DNA of 64,000 bases, from positions 13,468,082-13,532,081 of the forward strand of contig OZ025211.1 of NCBI GenBank assembly GCA_964019055.1, read 5' to 3'. Both the position numbers and the translations under genes were made by a program. Numbering within the stretch: the first letter of the stretch is position 1; each line of letters opens with the position of its first letter. Below, piece after piece: positions 26,224-38,415 of this stretch. The notes below the pieces were generated by a model that saw nothing but the letters and a program-made list of their open reading frames with translations, had not been told where the DNA came from and made no database searches. Origin of the DNA: Anthopleura xanthogrammica (lineage: Eukaryota; Cnidaria; Anthozoa; Actiniaria; Actiniidae).

Positions 26224-27210
26224 ATCATTATTGCTTTAAGCTTTTTACAGTGTGTAATGAAATTTATCCCATGGTAAGAAATCTGGCGGCACGATTTTGC
26301 AGCTTTTATAGTTTGTCAGACAAGTAGCTACTTAATCCATCCCACATCTGGCAACAATAGTCCATGTGTGGAAGGATTAAGGCTTTGTAGATCGTGACTG
26401 CAGTTTTCATGGAGATAAACAGTCTCACTCTTCTCAGTACACTAATTCCTGAAGCGATCTTTTTAGAAATTTCATTGATATGATGAGTCCAAGAGAGTCT
26501 GTCGTCAAATAAAAGCCCTAATGATTTCGTATGATGGACTCTTTCAATTCTAGTCCCTTCTATTTCTATTTCGATTTGATCATTGCCTAATACCGAAAGC
26601 TTTTGCCATGAGCCCATCACCATGAACTCTGTCTTCGCTATATCAAGACTAAGCCTGTTTGCCTTTCACCAACAAGCAAGATTATGAAGCTCCGAGCTCA
26701 TTGTGACTTGGAGGTCATTTAGGTTATCGGCAGAAAGATTGACATTAGTATCGTCGGCAAACATATTAGGAACCGCCAACTCAAGGCAGTTAGGCAAGTC
26801 ATTTATGTACACTAGGAAGAGTAATGTACCGATTATACTCCCTTGTGGCACACCGCAAGTTATCAAACGTGAGTCTGATAGATTACCATTAACTTGGCAC
26901 TTTAGACTTCGATTACTTAAGTACGACTGAAACCACACAAGGGTGTTTCGGTCAAGTCCATAGTTTTGCAGCTTACATATAATTATGTCATGATTTATTG
27001 TATCGAAGGCCTTCTTGAGGTCGATAGATATAATACCGTATATAAGGCCTTTGTCAATATTAATTGACCAATTGTTTGTAGCTCGAAGTAGAACTGTCAT
27101 TGTACTATGAAGTGACCGGAATCCCGATTGACAGTTTGTTAACAGCTCGTTATTTAAATATGCATATAGCTGGTCGTAAATAATGTTTCCGAAAATTTTC
27201 GAAACTACAG

Positions 27211-27218
27211 GTATAACT
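27211..27218. repeat. Left 8-bp target site duplication GTATAACT
   Basis: Identical to 38408-38415 in direct orientation, immediately outside the 293-bp inverted repeats. The empty site restores the LINE reading frame. Confidence 0.93.
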
Positions 27219-27511
27219 TAGCCTGCGTGCAGCCGAACGAAAACCCAGGTTATGTCCGTCTGCGAATCAGCGACACAAATCGTGTTCTAGACTCCCAGCA
27301 CTGTACCGAGATATATGTACTAGATACTGATTGGTTACTTCGATTACAATTCTTACGCGCGCTCTCATTGGCTGTATCCTACTCGTACCAGGCCGACTCA
27401 TGTGTCATGGCTTGTTTTGGCTTTTCCCGGCAAAAAGATTTCGCATGGATTTCGAAAAGTGTTGTATTCTTTGTTCTCGAGATATTTTAGAACACAGCAA
27501 GAGGTATTTAG
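27219..27511 (+). repeat. Left terminal inverted repeat, 293 bp
   Basis: Matches the reverse complement of 38115-38407 with about two substitutions. Its inner edge contains the first 22 codons or so of the DUF6589-like gene, because the repeat extends into coding sequence on the other end. It probably also carries the promoter for the helicase. Confidence 0.95.
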
Positions 27512-27531
27512 CTTTATCAAGAAAAGTATAA
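27445..27531 (+). CDS. 28-codon upstream ORF ahead of the helicase
   Basis: The left repeat copies the start of the opposite gene (MDFEKCCILCSRD...). On this side it runs six codons past the repeat to a TAA at 27529-27531. It lies 47 bp before the helicase ATG at 27579. If the transcript starts in the repeat, this would be an upstream ORF that could limit helicase translation. That role is inference. Confidence 0.5.
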   Translation: MDFEKCCILCSRDILEHSKRYLALSRKV

Positions 27532-27578
27532 CTCCGTGAAAGTCCCTAAAGATTACCAGCTTTATACATTGGAAAAAA

Positions 27579-29663
27579 ATGTCTTCTACTGTACCAGAAA
27601 GCGTGTGGAAAACAGCTATATCGCAAGTTCTCGAACTGTTTTTGATGGAAGAATTGATGGCCGAACAAGAAGAAGCAATTCGAGCATTCTTTAATGGCCT
27701 AAATGTTTTCGTAAATTTACCAACTGGATTCGGGAAGTCTCTCATTTTCCAATGCCTTCCTGTCGTCTCAGACGTGATCAACAACAAACCTCGAGGTTCA
27801 AGTTTAGTTGTTGTCGTCTCTCCGCTCAAGTCTTTGATGGAGGACCAAGTTGCCAGTTTACAGAATCTGGGAATTCCTGCTATAGCCATAGGGACTGAGA
27901 CTGATGCTGAAATGATTCAGCAGGTTATTAATGGAAACTTTATCATCGTGTTTATATCCCCCGAATGTTTGTTGTCGACTTCAACTTCGCGTGAAATATT
28001 TAATGCGGAAAGCTTCAAAGAAATGCTGATTGGAGTTGCTGATGACGAGGCTCATTGCATAACACAGTGGTAAGCTAAAGTTTGATTGTATGAATTTTAC
28101 TTTTTACGAAGACAAATAAATAGAACGATTTTTCTCACTTGAATTTTGTTTATTAATATAGTAATACAACGTGAAAATATCATTGTTTTTATCATACATT
28201 TATATAAGTTTATAAAACTAAAATGAATAAGTGTGATTATGTGATACACTATATTATAAATACTACAGACATGCAAAATGAGCAGCAGTTAGTCATATAT
28301 GCAGTTGTGATGTAATCTCTAATGCACATATTTATTATCTACCTGCAGGGGTTTACCTGGAGACCAAAAAGTTCCATTCAGGAAATGGTTTGGCCGTTTA
28401 GGAGAGCTGCGCTCGCTTATTCCAGAGGGATGCAACCTCATGGTTCTAACTGCAACTGCAACTACAGCAACAAAACAACAAAGTATGAGCTCCCTTAACT
28501 TGACATTTCAAAATGTCAAAGTCATAGAACAGAGCCCTGATAGACCCAATTTGTTTTACAGTACAGTGTACCTAGACAAGAACCAGCCATTGGAGAGAGC
28601 ATTAGGAGGTTTAATTAAAGAAGTAGAAACACTGGGCAAAGACACTCCTAGAACTATTATTTATTGCCAAACTCGGAAGCAGTGTTCACTTCTTTTTGCC
28701 ATGTTTGAAATGTTTCTGGGCCAAAAATTGTTTAACGGAGACAGAAAACCTCGAAACCGCCTAGTTGAAATGTACCATGCTGGTACCCCAGCTTCAGTAA
28801 AGGAAAACATAATTGAAAACATGACTAAGTGTGAGGGACATCTTCGCATCTTGATTTCAACTGTTGCATTTGGCATGGGAGTCAACTGCAAAAAAGTGAG
28901 ACGAATTGTTCATTTCGGCCCATCAAAATCAATTGAAATGTACATACAAGAGTGTGGGCCAAGTACATGTGTTCTGTTATTTAATGGTTTGCTCTCAGCT
29001 TATTGTGACAATGATATGAAGAGATATGTTCAAGCTGAAGAAGCATGTCTACGAAAGCTATTGATGGTGCACTTCAGTCAAACAGCATCTAAATCTAACA
29101 CCAGCTTAACTCCTTTGCACAACTGCTGTAAGTACTGTCATGCTAAATGTAGTTGTGGAAAATGCCCTGAACTATGTAAACTTGAATTTGAAGATGATAA
29201 CTTTTCAAATTCTTACTTTAAAAAGTCAAGAGTCAAACAACACCTCACAAGAGTTGTTACCAAGGGAAATGTCTCTATTCTTTGTGAAAAACTTTTGGAA
29301 TTTCAGCAAAATTTGCAAAAGAACATTGAAGTGTGTGCTATGGTTTCCTGTCCTAATATTATATTAGTCCTAGCAAGATGTCACTCCTTATTCACCATAA
29401 AAGATGTTTTTGAGTCTGTGGAGGTATGGCGAAGTTACTATGCTGTTGCTATTCTGAAGATAATCAGTGAGATATTTCAGGATGTAGATGTTGATTTTTC
29501 TGCTATTCATAAACAAGATTTGGACTTTGATGAATCAGGATTTTCTGAGTGGAATAACATTAGAGATGATTCTACCTTGTTACCAAACTTCTTTGACACT
29601 CAAGACCTTGAAGGAATAGGAAGCTCCATGGACACATACAATTCATGTACTAGTAATGAATGA
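27579..29663 (+). CDS. RecQ-like SF2 DNA helicase of the transposon, motif VI lost
   Basis: Two exons, 27579..28069 and 28349..29663, join in phase to 601 residues. Walker A is LPTGFGKS (47-54), preceded by a RecQ-type motif with Q30; motif II is DEAH (156-159) followed by CITQWG. LTATAT marks motif III and FGMGVNCKKVRRIVHFGPSKS motif V. The next block normally reads QESGRAGRDG in RecQ proteins. Here it goes from QECG straight to PSTCVLLFNGLL, so the motif VI arginines are missing by in-frame deletion near 28955. A RecQ-type zinc region follows (EEACLRKLL then CCKYC, CSCGKC). ATP hydrolysis coupling would be expected to fail, so this copy is probably inactive. In the intact family the helicase would presumably act on DNA during transposition or repair. 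The start is the first ATG in a frame open to Walker A. Confidence 0.8.
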
Positions 29664-29775
29664 GTAGTGCATGCATGGCTTTTGGAGGTGATCATAACAC
29701 AACTTTAGCTAAATTATATTGCTGCCATTATTAGTACACATAATTCATAATATATAGATTTAGGCACTGCCTAAA

Positions 29776-31228
29776 AGCGGAGCTCCCATAAATAGTATAT
29801 TTATTGCTAAAAACGTGACAATTGTGTGACGCGGCATAACGCTGGTTATAGCGTTACCACTTCGTTTGATTTTACCAGAATCCAGGAGGAAAAACTAAAA
29901 GAAAAACCATTATTTTAAGCCTTCAAAAGCATTACAAAACTTTTCAATTCGAAGAAAAATAATTATAGATTGTACAACATATGAATACATGTATAGAACA
30001 AAGGATTTCATTCAGCAAATCTTAGTAATCAAAGTTGTAAGTTTTTTAGGTGGAAAGTGAACTACACTGAAAATTGTCGAAAAATATTACTGATAAGCTT
30101 AAGCTTACATTCACTTGAACTTCATATGTAAAAAGAGACATATTCATTAATGCAAGATAATAATGTTCTTTGTTAGTAAGTTGGTCTTTGAAAAGTTTTT
30201 TTTCAGATTATCGAGCGAAATATCTTACAAAAACATAAGCTTATTTATAAAGAAAAACAAGCTCATCATTTTTGCGATTGTGTAATAGTAATAGCTGGAA
30301 AAGCCCGATAAATAGCAAATATTTGGTGTGATATGTATTTCTTTTTTCATATTTCATTCAACATTAAAATAAATTATCTATAAAAATGTCAAAATATTCA
30401 TATGAAACTGGAATCTTGTTTTAACTTCGCGTGAGGTTCGCTGGCCGTCAAATATATTTTTTCAAAGAACCAAGTCTTTTTACTAAGTCTTAGCCTTTTT
30501 TCTTGATATGGGATCAAAAACAAAAATTCAAAGCTTCAAATATCGCTTTTTTGGTTCACAAGTAATGAAGAAAAAGATGATAAAAATCTAGAATGCAGTA
30601 AAAACGACAAACTATCCAAGTTTTTCTGACAATGTTTGCCGAACCAAAGTCCTTGGCTTGTCTGAGAGTTTCTCCAGCTAGTTTACACATTTCTTGTCGT
30701 TTTTTTTACGAAATATTAGTTAACATTAATGAATTTACCTTCTATGAAGTGCTTTCTATGGAGCTGAAATATTATTCTTGCAGTATAATCAGGTTTTTCT
30801 GGTCTACAGGCCACTTTTTCTGTCACTGAAGTTTCAGTCACGAAACTTCATCGTAAGATTAAGAATCTTCCCTCGCTTTCCCTCGCTAAATCTTCTTTAG
30901 CAAGTCGCTAAAGTCGAAAAATTGTTTTTGTTCACTTTAAGACAGACATGACTTCGATTAAACGTATTTTTCGCATTGCAAAAATAAGAAAAAATACTTC
31001 TTGATCCATCTTTCAGTACATTATTGCAATTTTTCTGTGCATTTGTGAGTAAGCAAAGCGCGCGGGAACCCTGTGCAAAGTGGTACACGGACGGACGTAT
31101 GTATGTATGTATGTATGTACGTATGTATGTATGTATGGACAAGGTGATGACGTAATCAAGCCATGAAAAATCAACTCGATGGGTTACCATTTCTTCTTAA
31201 GTATGGTGGCCCGCGCGGGAGCTCCGCT
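29776..31228. mobile_element. Candidate non-autonomous element with AGCGGAGCTCCC ends
   Basis: AGCGGAGCTCCC (29776-29787) and its reverse complement (31217-31228) bracket 1.45 kb of noncoding sequence lying between the helicase stop and the end of the convergent gene. A (ATGT)n microsatellite lies at about 31099-31138. Short ORFs here (for example 30632-30829) look spurious. The 12-bp ends are short, so the boundaries are tentative. Confidence 0.5.
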
Positions 31229-34022
31229 ATAATACGTTCAAAATTTGATTTTTGGTAAAACTTCATTGAATTATTCACCAAGAGTCTATTAGAAATCTTA
31301 TGCATATTATTTAGCTCCCACATGAAAGATTATGGGAATAGAGAAAAAAATTTTCAATGCATTAATCCAGCATTCATCCTTTTTTGATTTTATGATTTAA
31401 AAATATATAATTATATATAAACAGCTACCAAAAAGCACAAACAATATAATCAAAGAAATGTCTGTGTATAATAAATAAATATATTTAAAGAAATATGACA
31501 TACAAATTAAGATGTATGGTGAAGCTGTTTTATAAATCTTATTAAAGCTCAATGACATCTAAAGATCCTTGGAATTCTTTCAATGAAGTTTATGATATTA
31601 ATTAAATAATTTTGAAAATTTGAGGTGTGGATTGGAAGTATTGTTTTAATCTCCTTGTGTTTATATCATCTTGCTCTTCTATTAAGTATCATATACTTCT
31701 TGTGTTGGTTTATCCAGGTATACATTTTCTGCATGTCAAACCCAGAAAGAATACTTGGTGGTACATCCACGTAGTACTGGTATCTTCGACCTTCTGTGTA
31801 AGTAAAGGCACTTTGTGCAACCAATTCCTTTACAACCTTCTCCAGATCACTCTTTGCTGATTGCTTGATGTGCTTCCCAGACCTTTTGTATACCAACAAA
31901 TTGGTGTCAAAATTTGCCATAAGTTCCATTGTGGTTCTTAGAGAGTGACAAATTCTGTCCAATGACTTCTGTGATGCAGCTGGACCAAGCTTTTTTATAG
32001 CCTCTTTAACAGACTTGTTAAAGAACTCCAGTTGCAGATCTAATGGGATGTGCCCTCCTATCCCTGACTTGTTTTTGCTAAACCTGTTCCATATCAATCG
32101 GTGAGATGACCTTGGACTCAGCAAAGCATGTATCTGAAACATTAAATACAGAGTTTCCAAGGAATACTTGGAAGAACCCCCCTCATGCTTCAGATATAAT
32201 AAAAAGAATTTCCAACAGCGAATAACTCGTTGCCCATCCCCCTCAGAAATCGCATCCCAAAAATTTAGCAACAACATGCCATAATCCAGAAGGGACCTCT
32301 GATATGCAAGCATATCATCACCCTTATTTTGATCAGTGATCTCTTCCTCCTTTTTCTTGGTGGAACCCTGTTGATTGGGAATGGCAGGCTCAGGGGGGTT
32401 ATGCTCTTCTTCATGCTCTCTCCTTAGCTTTCCATCATGAGCGAAGGTTTTTTTGCATCCAGGATATCTACATGGATATCTTCCTTCTGCATTCACAACA
32501 TTCTTCTTCTGCTCATCCTCCAGGTGCTGACATGATTGCTCAATGTCTTGATTTCTCTCCTTGTCAACAATGAATGTGTCAACAACAAGTGAAGCTACTT
32601 CATTGAGGTAGGCCTTCTTATCTTGTTTGGGTGAATCTTTATTAAGTCCCTCTGAAATAACATTTTTTCTGGGCTTTTCATCTAGTTTGCTCATACCCAG
32701 AATATTTAATGCAGCAGCAACTACTCTTGCCTGTACCTCAAGAGTGAAAAATCTGCGGCAAGCATTTGCTGCTGAAGAAACATCACTTTTAACATTTCTT
32801 CTGTTGATTAAATTTCTGTCGCTAAATAAAGTACACTTGTCTCCACCAGATGTAGCACTGTATAACTTTGAGAAGCCAACCTGTAAGTAAGATGCATGAA
32901 ATTATCATATTAAATTTTTATCTCCTTTTGTATTGTTATTGATTGCAAATATGTCTAAAATGGCATTAGAAAAAAATCCTCTGATTGGCTTAGCTGTTAG
33001 GGGTCCATAAGTGATACACCTCTTGTAGCGAAAAGGGCCGGATTTTAGAACCAAAAATAAATTATTTCATTCAAATATCAACATTTTTCATCCTTTATTG
33101 GACCGATTACTAGGTTTTTACTAAAACAACTAATTATAGACCTTAATTTGCCCTCATATGGCCTACGAGTCAATGGACTTCAGAGACCATTTTGGGATTA
33201 TGAGGACTAATTAATTGTAAAATATAGGGAAATTTGAAGTTGCCTGCTGAAAAAAGAAAAAAATAGTACTGGTGATCACTACAACTTTTCCTGTTGCCAT
33301 TTATATGAGTACCTTGGTTTTATACTTCTAGAAAATTTGTTTTTAAAGAGATGTTTTTATTTAGAATTTTAATATTGATAATCACCTCCAAGAACTTGTT
33401 TCCTGCATGCCAGTCTGCCACCTCGAAATGCAACCCATCAAGTCTTTCTTCAGGAGTGAAGCCATTAGCAAGAGACATGTGGCCATTTACTCCACACTCT
33501 ACACTCAGTTGGTCACCAACCACTCCTTGAGAAGCATATACTCTCTCGTCACCATCACCATGGAAAGGCACATAGTCATGGAGAGATTTCAAAATTTCAA
33601 TTATCCCATTGGCATCATTTTCATTCTCGTCCATTATTCCTAAGAAAGTCTAAAAGAAAAGTCATCTATTAGCAAGTTTTGTTCATTCAAACATCATTAT
33701 TACCCTATAGGGATAAAATGCACCCTATGACAGCATAAACATGCACTTGAGATTTTAATGCCCACCTTATCCCAATGATAAATTTACATATACCAGTGGA
33801 AGTGGAAAAAAAAAGAAAGCTATATCTCAATGTTGTGTTTTAACAATTCACTATATATAATCGAAAAATGTTGCCATTAAGCATGATCACTCAAAATATA
33901 TATATATATATATATATATATCTGGATGTGTCTATTTTGACGGTAAAGTGCTCAATACATTGACATGTAGAGCGTTATAGATTATGGATTGTAGATAGAT
34001 CAAAGACAAGACATAACTTTTG

Positions 34023-34062
34023 CTGTTACTCGGAGTTTCACGCTTACGCGATCTTCAGACAG
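34023..34062 (-). ncRNA. Hammerhead-ribozyme-like motif (Penelope, left copy)
   Basis: On the minus strand: stem I strand CTGT, core CTGAAGA, stem-loop CGC-GTAA-GCG, core GAAA, a short stem III (AC/GT around a 5-base loop), GTA, then stem I strand ACAG. Position 7 of the CUGANGA core is variable in hammerheads, so all invariant core bases appear present. A U-U pair flanks stem II. Hammerheads are reported in the terminal regions of Penelope-like elements. Confidence 0.55.
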
Positions 34063-34179
34063 TCTTTAATAAAGAATGATCAATACTGTAGTCTATATAT
34101 ACCTGAGGCGCTATAATCTATAATAGGAGTATTGTTATGTATTTACAATAGTGTTATTGTTCTATCAAGGTGCGATAAT

Positions 34180-35175
34180 TTATGTTATCCGGCTTAAGTA
34201 ATATTTGTTTTCGTGGCGGCATTTTGAAATAAGTTCTGATCTTTTGTTGAGAAGGTTGGCTTTATCTGCTTTAATAATGTTCAATTTTTCTGCTAAGCAG
34301 AGATTGCATTTCTTAGAAATATTATTGTAGGCTTTTGCTGAGGTGATGATTGACCATTTGATGTGGTAAATTTTCTTGTTGTCTTGAAGTGTCCAGATGT
34401 GTTTTGATAGTTCAGTGCTGTTGGCGTATTTTCTGTTTCGGAAAGATAGCTTGTGTTGCGTATACCGTTGTTTAAATGTTCCTTCTGTTAGTCCGATGTA
34501 GTTCTTTGCGGGTATGTCGTCTTCTGTGGTTACTCGTGCGTTGTACACTATGCTGGTTGTGAGGCAGTTGTTTTCTAGTGGGCATTGGTCTTTTTTTCGG
34601 CAGTTGCAGTCGTTCTGTGAAGAGGTTGCGGGGCTGTTGTTAGTTATTTTCTTGTTGTGTTTGTTGATTATGCTTGTCATATTTTCCATGCAACTGTAGC
34701 TGACTTTAACGTTGTTCTTGTTGAAGATGCAGTGGAACTTGTGATTTTTAGGGAAGTGCTTCTGAATAAGGTTAAGGAAGGTTTTTCCTACGTTAGTTTG
34801 TACGTTTTTGCTGAATGGGGGGTTAAACCATATAATATTTCTCTTTCTGTTTCTTCTTTGTGGTGCAGATGTGTTATGGTTATTGTATGTGAGGGTTTCT
34901 GTGAATCCGCTGTTTTTTAGTGCTGTTTCGTAGAGTGGCTTAGCTGCGTTGAATGCTTCTTCGTTGCATGAAATGTCGGTTATTCTGCGGTTGATAGCTG
35001 CGGGTAGCTGTTTGATTATGGAAGGTGGGTGGTTAGATTTCGTGTTGATATACAGTGGCTCGTCGTTTGGCTTTCTGTAGGGGTAGTAGGATTCGTTTGT
35101 TAAGTTGAATGTGACGTCAAGGTAGTTTACTGCTTTCAGGTTGGTTTGTATGGTGATATTAAGGCCGTGTTTCTT
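34180..35175 (-). pseudogene. Penelope-like RT thumb plus GIY-YIG endonuclease (left copy)
   Basis: The open frame starts at the truncation junction. LKAVNYLDVTFNL, PYRKPNDEPLYINTKSNHPP and IIKQLPAAINRRI are the region after the reverse-transcriptase palm in Penelope-like elements. CNCRKKDQCPLENNCLT is a Cys-rich linker. YNARVT and NYIGLTEGTFKQRY form the GIY-YIG nuclease with a following H (YTQHKLSF). The stop is at 34180. The RT palm with its catalytic motif is missing because the copy is 5'-truncated, so it cannot move by itself. Confidence 0.8.
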
Positions 35176-35176
35176 A

Positions 35177-35712
35177 ACAACGTTAAAGTCAGCTACAGTT
35201 GCATGGAAAATATGACAAGCATAATCAACAAACACAACAAGAAAATAACTAACAACAGCCCCGCAACCTCTTCACAGAACGACTGCAACTGCCGAAAAAA
35301 AGACCAATGCCCACTAGAAAACAACTGCCTCACAACCAGCATAGTGTACAACGCACGAGTAACCACAGAAGACGACATACCCGCAAAGAACTACATCGGA
35401 CTAACAGAAGGAACATTTAAACAACGGTATACGCAACACAAGCTATCTTTCCGAAACAGAAAATACGCCAACAGCACTGAACTATCAAAACACATCTGGA
35501 CACTTCAAGACAACAAGAAAATTTACCACATCAAATGGTCAATCATCACCTCAGCAAAAGCCTACAATAATATTTCTAAGAAATGCAATCTCTGCTTAGC
35601 AGAAAACTTGAACATTATTAAAGCAGATAAAGCCAACCTTCTCAACAAAAGATCAGAACTTATTTCAAAATGCCGCCACGAAAACAAATATTACTTAAGC
35701 CGGATAACATAA
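35177..35712 (+). pseudogene. Penelope-like GIY-YIG endonuclease (right copy, truncated)
   Basis: Shorter inverted copy of the neighbouring ORF, beginning within NNVKVSYSCMENM and running to the same stop. It differs by few residues (for example LAENLN against LAEKLN). Confidence 0.8.
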
Positions 35713-35829
35713 ATTATCGCACCTTGATAGAACAATAACACTATTGTAAATACATAACAATACTCCTATTATAGATTATAGCGCCTCAGGTATATATAGA
35801 CTACAGTATGGATCATTCTTTATTAAAGA

Positions 35830-35869
35830 CTGTCTGAAGATCACGTAAGCGTGAAACTCCGAGTAACAG
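35830..35869 (+). ncRNA. Hammerhead-ribozyme-like motif (Penelope, right copy)
   Basis: Same architecture as the left copy with one change in stem II (CAC instead of CGC), which weakens that helix unless it re-pairs as CACG/CGTG. Stem I CTGT/ACAG and the cores CTGAAGA and GAAAC...GTA are unchanged. Confidence 0.5.
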
Positions 35870-36918
35870 CAAAAGTTATGTCTTGTCTTTGATCTATCTA
35901 CAATCCATAATCTATATATATATATATATATTTATGCCAAATTTTGAAATGAGTATCTTTCTAATGAGTTTGATACAAAAATTATAATAATATATGGGTT
36001 AACAGGATTTGATATAATACAATAAAATACAACATGATGTTTTTGATATTGAATTATCATCTTTTACAGGGATTTATAGTAGAGGGTCATGCACATGTCA
36101 CATTTTTGATGATCTTTTTTTTAATTTGAATGTGTTATTGAAACCCATGCATGCCACCCTGACCCTCCACTCACTTTACATAATAAGTGGTCCCTACCGT
36201 ATCAGTTTTCTGCATCATCTCTGTTCTATACTGATGGGGGATATGTGTGGTTGTGACATCTGACAGGAAGTTGAGACATGGGATGTTCTCAACAATTATA
36301 CGTTCCACCAATATGATGTAATTTGCTTTTTGCTTCATATTTTCATTGGCACTTGGTATGCAGACTCCATTGAACATTTCAAGGACTCCATCACTTGGAG
36401 CCTCATCAGATAATTGGTTACCAGGAACTCTATTTTCAGTTGACATCATTGTAACACAATGTTTGTCTTCACTTTGGTGGTCCTCAGTCATATAGTGTAC
36501 CTCTTGTTTGTAATCAAGATTGTCAAAGGTGATTTTCCTTCCACAATCTTCAGAAACTACTTGCAACAAGTTGTTCTCCTTATTTTCATCATGATTGGCA
36601 TTTGTCGACTCACTCTGTTGAGCACTCTCCTGTGTTTTGGCCATGTAGTGACTCTGTTTGAGGACTGCATCTTTAATTTGCTTATTGTAATCCTGACCAA
36701 ATTCATCCAGCTTCTTGTAGAGGAATGTATGGCTTGTGGTCAGCTTAAGAGGACCAAGTCGAGCTAAAGTTCCCTATAGAGAATATGGAAATATTTATCA
36801 TCAGCTTATTATTTGCAGTCACTATACATGAATATCTTGTCAGTTTTGTTTTTCTAAAGAAAGGCGAAGTAGAGCGACAGACTCAAAACCAGCCATTTCG
36901 TTTCACGTACAAGCAAGT

Positions 36919-37062
36919 GAGAGGGCCCTGATCAAGAATTAAGGGGTAAAATGGTCCGAGTTGGGATTCACTTTTTTTGTGGGCTGGGAAATGGGATTTC
37001 ATGCAGTGGTACTGGGATTTATTTTTTAAAAAAACAATAGAAAAATGGGATTGAGATTTCAG
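36919..37062. mobile_element. MITE copy B of the GGGATTT-rich family
   Basis: AGGGGTAAAATGG, GGCTGGGAAATGGGATTT and ACTGGGATTTA follow the same order as at 16638-16871. The right end is not recognisable. It lies in the intron 36774-37243 of the DUF6589-like gene. Confidence 0.6.
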
Positions 37063-38114
37063 CAAAACACACCTTCCACAAAATGACTCTTGCATAATAA
37101 ATTATTATCATTTCAGTATATTGATCAGTATTATCCCCACCCCATGCCCGGCCTCCGTCCCATAGGTGCTTTATATCTCAAGAGTTTATAAAGCCCGCAT
37201 ACATCTCAACTACTTGGGAAAACTTTACATGATATCTACTTACCATCCAGTTTGAATGATAGAGGAAGGTAGTAACCAAAAGTTGAACTGCAATCATGAA
37301 TTTTGATCTGTTTTTCAAACAAATCGCTGCTGCCATGCCGATCGCTCCAAAATTGGTTCGTGATGGGTGAGTTGCTCTTCTCTTGCTGTTGATACTAGCG
37401 GCTGATAAGAGGTAGTAGAATAGTGGAGCTCGCTCTTTGATCTCGTTTGCCAACTTTTCCACAGTAAACGATAACATGCTAGACTTATCTGTCTTCCTCA
37501 GGCAACTGGGATTCGTTTTTGAACGCCATTCGCTTCATTCTCGACGTCTTTCGCCATGAGTGCTATCAGTTCTTTCTTGACACAAGGAGATTTCCAGGCC
37601 GCATGTGCTATCTGCTTGTAAGTACCACGAACGAGCATCTTTCCTAGTGACTCTAAATCCTCTGGTAACTTCCTTTCTTTTTCTTTGGAGGGCCATTGTA
37701 TCCTGACTTTTACATCAACACTTTTTTTTTCGGTCGAAATCGGAAGGCTTCCGATTTTAATAGGAGATACTGTGCATGTTTCACGCGGCGGTGCTCTTGT
37801 TCGAACGGGTGTCGAACATAAACTTGCGCTTGAAGAAGGCACTTTGATTGACTCGTCGGAATCTACGCAAACTTTCTTAGGCGTGGAGATCACATCTTCA
37901 GAAGCACTTCTCTTCAGTTGAGAATTCTGAGGAGGTTTGGATAAGTTGTATCGTTCTTGTATAAGGCTATAAAGTCTCTCTTGTTGCTCAATCACACCTC
38001 GACGTTTCTTCAATAGTTCTAAACAAGTTTTGCAAATATAGTCGCTTGATCGCGAAAAAGAAAAGGGAAGGTTCTTAAGCTCTTCTTTAACCTTGAAACT
38101 TCCTTTTCCCTTCA

Positions 38115-38407
38115 CTAAATACCTCTTGCTGTGTTCTAAAATATCTCGAGAACAAAGAATACAACACTTTTCGAAATCCATGCGAAATCTTTTTGCCGGG
38201 AAAAGCCAAAACAAGCCATGACACATGAGTCGGCCTGGTACGAGTAGGATACAGCCAATGAGAGCGCGCGTAAGAATTGTAATCGAAGTAACCAATCAGT
38301 ATCTAGTACATATATCTCGGTACAGTGCTGGGGGTCTAGAACACGATTTGTGTCGCTGATTCGCAGACGGACATAACCTGGGTTTTCATTCGGCTGCACG
38401 CAGGCTA
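38115..38407 (-). repeat. Right terminal inverted repeat, 293 bp
   Basis: Reverse complement of 27219-27511. It contains the ATG (38181-38179) and first codons of the DUF6589-like gene, so its promoter must lie within the outer 225 bp or so. Confidence 0.95.
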
Positions 38408-38415
38408 GTATAACT
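38408..38415. repeat. Right 8-bp target site duplication GTATAACT
   Basis: Direct copy of 27211-27218, abutting the transposon end. Confidence 0.93.

Follow-up and report, generated by a model that had tools for sequence, protein, structure and literature searches.

The locus described here raises the question of what an 11-kb segment with long inverted ends, a RecQ-like helicase gene and a gene of the Pfam family DUF6589 represents, and what parts its two proteins play. It is located in a 64,000 nucleotide (nt) stretch of Anthopleura xanthogrammica DNA (assembly GCA_964019055.1, contig OZ025211.1, positions 13,468,082–13,532,081), which is termed the window; positions without a chromosome prefix refer to it. 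The joint best explanation, which we consider very likely, is that the segment is a probably defective copy of an AcademH-type transposon family, in which DUF6589 acts as the DDE transposase and the RecQ helicase is its long-term partner.

The ends of the element and its insertion site, including target site duplications (TSDs), terminal inverted repeats (TIRs) and an open reading frame (ORF) of a long interspersed element (LINE), are as follows.

27211–27218: left TSD, GTATAACT, an exact match to the right TSD
27219–27511, + strand: left TIR, 293 bp, two mismatches relative to the right TIR
38115–38407, − strand: right TIR, 293 bp, two mismatches relative to the left TIR
38408–38415: right TSD, GTATAACT, an exact match to the left TSD
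26669–27217, − strand: LINE reverse transcriptase ORF split by the insertion (RVT_1, 4e-21)

The transposon occupies positions 27219–38407 (~11 kb) and is seated within the LINE reverse transcriptase ORF, which by eye resumes past position 38408. The flanks, when joined at one GTATAACT, match at 98% an uninterrupted LINE paralog at C6:13699495–13699717 on the same chromosome, which has a single GTATAACT. The insertion is therefore shown beyond inference from the repeats, and the element is a genuine TIR-bounded insertion with an 8-bp duplication. A second LINE paralog matches the joined flanks at 89% (query positions 1–176), and its site has diverged. An earlier note on this DNA, made from the sequence alone, had described near-identical inverted repeats, an exact 8-bp duplication and a real TIR transposon, and is borne out on these points.

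A 28-nt pattern from the TIR tip has 37 matches in the 290-Mb genome at up to three mismatches, 20 of which are exact, and a reversed control pattern has none. TIRs start with TAGYCT in four of the five families read, and GCAGCCG is found soon after in three. A 9-bp TSD, GTATAACTT, was considered for the window copy and rejected. It would need asymmetric ends (with a shared T) and is contradicted by the 8-bp TSDs, all exact, of five short copies (loci L042, L044, L046, L051 and L066), and the 8-bp length was kept. Extra copies of the GTATAACT octamer are present at 27526–27533, i.e. 14 bp inward of the inner end of the left TIR, and at 32860; these are probably due to chance.

The element displays two convergent spliced genes, as had been noted before, with the helicase on the + strand and the DUF6589 protein on the − strand. 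Splice sites of both genes were set by eye from GT/AG, reading frame and two relatives.

37244–38226, − strand: transposase exon 1, cysteine-containing N-terminus; its first ATG is within the right TIR and another, also in frame, is at 38181
36198–36773, − strand: transposase exon 2, with codon 36522–36524 (FDNLD) as candidate for the first catalytic D
33386–33649, − strand: transposase exon 3, with codon 33512–33514 (GDQL) as candidate for the second catalytic D; DUF6589 match 0.0045, below cut-off
31666–32880, − strand: transposase exon 4, DUF6589 core, with a C2H2-like insert at 32401–32472 and a candidate catalytic E at codon 32026–32028 (LDLQLE)
27579–28069, + strand: helicase exon 1, motif I LPTGFGKS at 27717–27740 and DEAH box at 28041–28055
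28349–29663, + strand: helicase exon 2, ending in a stop codon, with LTATAT, STVAFGMGVN and RecQ-type cysteines
28947–28967, + strand: QECGPST, site of missing motif VI residues; seven alignment columns are empty in the window copy and filled in all four other families

The DUF6589 protein is encoded by at least four exons, and the last of these matches DUF6589 at 1.5e-25. Two AlphaFold models of DUF6589 relatives have the P-element, Hermes (hAT) and RAG1 transposases as best matches, and the top rows are transposases or recombinases; the sequence identity in these fold alignments is 7–11% and the Foldseek E-values are not significant. A candidate acidic triad can be aligned among 11 proteins, with the first D in 11, the middle D in 10 and the final E in 11, and the window copy retains this candidate triad. 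The fold matches of the two predicted models point to an RNase H-like core of the kind that known transposases have. Because of these matches and the retained candidate D-D-E triad, the DUF6589 protein very probably belongs to the DDE transposases, of the P/hAT/RAG1 type, which agrees with the role previously assigned to it. No PDB sequence was matched by the DUF6589 profile. Named relatives of the transposase are from Hydractinia, Clytia, Dendronephthya, oyster, Acropora, Nematostella and lancelet, and those of Hydractinia and Dendronephthya display a zf-AD domain at the N-terminus.

The helicase has DEAD (1e-16) and Helicase_C (6e-13) domain matches. The RecQ family TIGR00614 is the top NCBIfam model for both exon pieces, each of which scores below the whole-protein cut-off, and WRN is the nearest solved relative by sequence. 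On these sequence criteria the protein is a RecQ-like helicase of superfamily 2, and the pairing of a RecQ-like helicase with a DUF6589-like protein, as first noted, is upheld. Among the best 120 matches listed, corals supply the best named relatives.

Both genes of the window copy display defects. The helicases of all four other families have the sequence RAGRDG (RAGRNG in one), where the window copy is seven alignment columns short; this site corresponds to motif VI, which holds the arginine finger of RecQ helicases. The window string in this cross-family alignment includes eight residues read from the intron end. In transposase exon 1 the homologous frame changes between ~37498 and 37522, and two relatives read through this region in a single frame. 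Because of the frame change and the missing motif VI residues, for which assembly error is a possible source, the window copy is probably not autonomous. The earlier note had called the element complete and suggested an autonomous family: “complete” applies to the ends but not to the genes, and “autonomous” does not fit this copy as read, which is probably a fairly recently inserted, defective one.

Is the helicase a regular part of the transposon? A genome search with the last exon of the window transposase gave 29 DUF6589 matches, or 25 places once exons are merged; a few weaker places from the family search are excluded from this count. A convergent helicase is present at 18 of the 25 places, made up of 14 and a further four, two of these four being fragments. 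On the side where a helicase is expected, none was found within ~5.5 kb of C2:2.07M, C6:16.24M and C15:4.79M, all of which have stops, nor at C1:16.04M, C1:16.05M and C2:2.40M in the 1.5 kb read outwards or near them in the genome helicase matches. At C8:13.16M the helicase is on the opposite side from that expected, and some helicase matches in the genome are without a DUF6589 partner. Pairwise identities of helicases and transposases in five families are correlated (r = 0.98), a value that 3 of 120 permutations of the labels attain when the true order is counted among them. Because of the linkage and the co-divergence, the helicase is better regarded as a long-term partner than as recent cargo; judged from these comparisons the two proteins seem to have moved as a pair over a long period. 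Alternatively, the helicase could be a passenger, or a captured host RecQ, without a part in transposition. This would suit the window copy, whose helicase has lost motif VI residues while its TIRs are 99% identical, but the alternative is unlikely in view of the convergent linkage, the correlated divergence and a motif VI that is intact in all four other families.

The TSD length varies. Among 16 two-ended copies of the window's family, eight have 8-bp TSDs (one with a mismatch), five have 9-bp TSDs (one with a mismatch), one has none and two share exchanged flanks; this count leaves out 11 one-ended places (L006, L047, L049, L050, L052–L054 and L070–L073; L074 is L006 again). The related C11 family has exact 9-bp TSDs in three full copies and 9 bp in 12 of 13 short copies among the matches listed. 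In the C3 family, one copy has a 9-bp TSD with one mismatch and the other has none. The C2h family has 9 bp in the full copy and 8, 9, 9, 9 (one mismatch), 9 and 10 bp in six short copies among the matches listed, and the C5b element is within a tandem repeat, so that its TSD is not uniquely readable. The short copies of the relatives were taken from pattern listings, among 100 places listed each, and comprise all pairs below 130 bp (13 and 4) and two 217-bp-class examples. The uniform 8-bp duplication that had been expected is thus not found: it is 8 or 9 bp in the window's family, and mostly 9, once 8 and once 10 bp in the relatives.

As to class, the AcademH lineage was reportedly treated by Kojima in 2020 (Mob DNA 11:15), under a title that names animals and fungi. 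The window element is best called AcademH-type, an assignment made by matching to the description of AcademH and with no Academ reference sequence compared; the presence of a helicase with a transposase and the 9-bp and one 10-bp TSDs of the relatives agree with that description, and the AcademH link drawn previously is thus supported. TSDs of 8 bp are typical of P and hAT elements, and the Kolobok TSD is TTAA. A Kolobok transposase with a RecQ helicase (KolobokH type) would therefore not account for the TSDs seen here, which are 8, 9 or 10 bp in length and varied in sequence. This reading is extremely improbable, although it has a likeness in its favor: KolobokH and Kolobok-1_CCri are DDE transposons that carry a RecQ helicase, on the complementary strand in Kolobok-1_CCri, but KolobokH is reported only from fungi so far (PMC9587614). 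Other sources give AcademH TSDs of 9–10 bp and AcademX TSDs of 3–4 bp (PMC10045372), report AcademH in fungi (PMC10799480) or cite AcademH (PMC12210899, PMC8290104); no further AcademH source was found in the literature searched. The designation “little-described” holds in part, since AcademH has already been published and a 2013 paper notes a RecQ helicase in Academ (PMC3627910).

Two AcademX-like loci are present in the same genome at C6:5733070 (L104) and C18:7413199 (L103), with 44.4 and 27.2 bits in the DUF6589 family search. As single ORFs L104 scores 43.1 bits and L103 24.1, under the cut-off of 27. A tail follows the DUF6589 part, within the same ORF and cysteine-rich at its end in L103 and in the next ORF in L104. 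This is presumably the XPG-like tail of AcademX, a label confirmed by no database; Pfam, NCBIfam and PDB sequence searches gave nothing for an XPG domain in it. No convincing TIRs were found around the two loci in the 5 and 7 kb examined, and the profile comparison of DUF6589 with the AcademX-like proteins is not significant. This weak link, the 8-bp TSDs, and the P element and Hermes as best fold matches of predicted models would favor a separate superfamily, neither Academ nor Kolobok, in which DUF6589 transposases nearer to P/hAT were independently paired with RecQ. Such a superfamily is quite unlikely, as the description of AcademH (helicase, 9–10 bp TSD, animals and fungi) fits most families here and the L104 ORF, which precedes an AcademX-like tail, passes the DUF6589 cut-off.

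For the AcademH-type element, the DUF6589 protein would recognize the terminal repeats, pair both ends and join them to the target with an 8- or 9-nt stagger that gives rise to the TSDs, by a cleavage chemistry which we infer. The RecQ-type helicase would most likely unwind DNA at the transposon ends or in gaps while strands are transferred or repaired. A working transposase, apparently not encoded by the window copy, may have acted in trans or since been lost, because the tips of the short copies are near-identical; the near-identity also suggests that these copies moved recently.

The short copies include 29 palindromic elements of 45–124 bp that consist of nearly just two TIR tips (L042–L046, L048, L051, L065–L069 and L084–L100). 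Of these, 26 have TSDs of 8–9 bp (four with one mismatch), and nearly all of the centres are different. L065 (56 bp) has the sequence of L066 in reverse complement, at a different locus. Ends-only copies of the window's family have arms of 13–42 nt and 11 different internal structures among 12 elements, with small overlaps or fillers. Such features could be explained by pure excision footprints or by gap repair that was aborted, but arm length appears to be family-specific (up to ~42, 60 and 37 nt in three families), and the copies may rather be palindromic mini-elements with centres revised in place. The C11-family TIR tip has 1083 genome matches (515 forward, 568 reverse; at most two mismatches in 20 nt) versus none for the control, which suggests that short copies were mobilized in large numbers by the C11 family.

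An 11.9-kb unit at C1:26254365–26266278 (loci L004, L105, L106 and L069) has window-family copies at both borders. In order, it displays TCAGTACAT, a 917-bp family derivative, TAGAATTT, 10.95 kb, TAGAATTT, a 45-bp ends-only copy and TCAGTACAT. The outer TSD, TCAGTACAT, is 9 bp and the inner duplicate, TAGAATTT, is 8 bp. The 10.95-kb interior includes an ORF with a B-box (TRIM-like) and, in tandem, a partial duplicate that is 90–97% alike; it corresponds to part of a B-box/TRIM-like gene array in circular permutation, and its two inner flanks match either side of a single site on C9. In the C9 array, C9:3900126 reads TAGAATTT and C9:3913802 reads TAGAATCT, and 14–23 extra bases adjoin each. No uninterrupted paralog of the joined outer flanks was found in the genome. 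An inversion between L004 and L069 is ruled out, as the flanks match in direct orientation. Because the unit is built like a cointegrate, AcademH-type elements might at least sometimes move replicatively, with the end of the transposon opened by the RecQ helicase at the fork of strand transfer. The chance of this is slim, and the unit is equally well explained by plain macro-transposition out of a tandem array or by a circle that crossed over into a resident copy.

The earlier note had listed as grounds against its reading any copies lacking one gene, unrelated cargo between the repeats and TSDs other than 8 bp. Each of these occurs in part, i.e. three degenerate relatives without a helicase in ~5.5 kb on the side where one is expected, the single 11.9-kb unit with host genes, and the 9-bp TSDs, and the transposon reading stands.

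The window copy has itself received a nested insertion in a transposase intron.

33976–35916: nested insertion with two 741-bp arms that form a perfect inverted repeat around a 459-bp spacer; its ORFs are presumably GIY-YIG-like and Penelope-like

What is new is the family itself and the evidence on a Pfam family that is listed as of unknown function; the AcademH kind was already known. The name DUF6589 has no mention in the literature searched, and on the fold evidence for a DDE transposase, proteins with DUF6589 could be annotated as derived from transposons. The several families with a helicase in this one genome, whose partners co-diverge, lend themselves to the question why a transposon should keep a RecQ helicase of its own, and the B-box unit suggests that AcademH-type ends may also move host genes.

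Compared with known systems, the element resembles the P element and Hermes (hAT) in the overall fold of two predicted models and in the 8-bp TSD, but differs in having an extra helicase gene, a C2H2-like insert and, in the Hydractinia and Dendronephthya relatives, the zf-AD N-terminus, at a sequence identity as low as that given above. The AcademX-like proteins share the DUF6589 similarity, and a DNVD motif at C6:5733070 resembles the candidate first catalytic D; unlike the window element, they have no helicase nearby among the genome helicase matches and carry the C-terminal tail, cysteine-rich and presumably XPG-like. AcademH differs in its TSD, quoted as 9–10 bp in PMC10045372, versus 8 bp in the window copy and 8 or 9 bp in its family. 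It is alike in the transposase with a helicase, the TIRs, the occurrence in an animal genome and the 9-bp and one 10-bp TSDs of the relatives.

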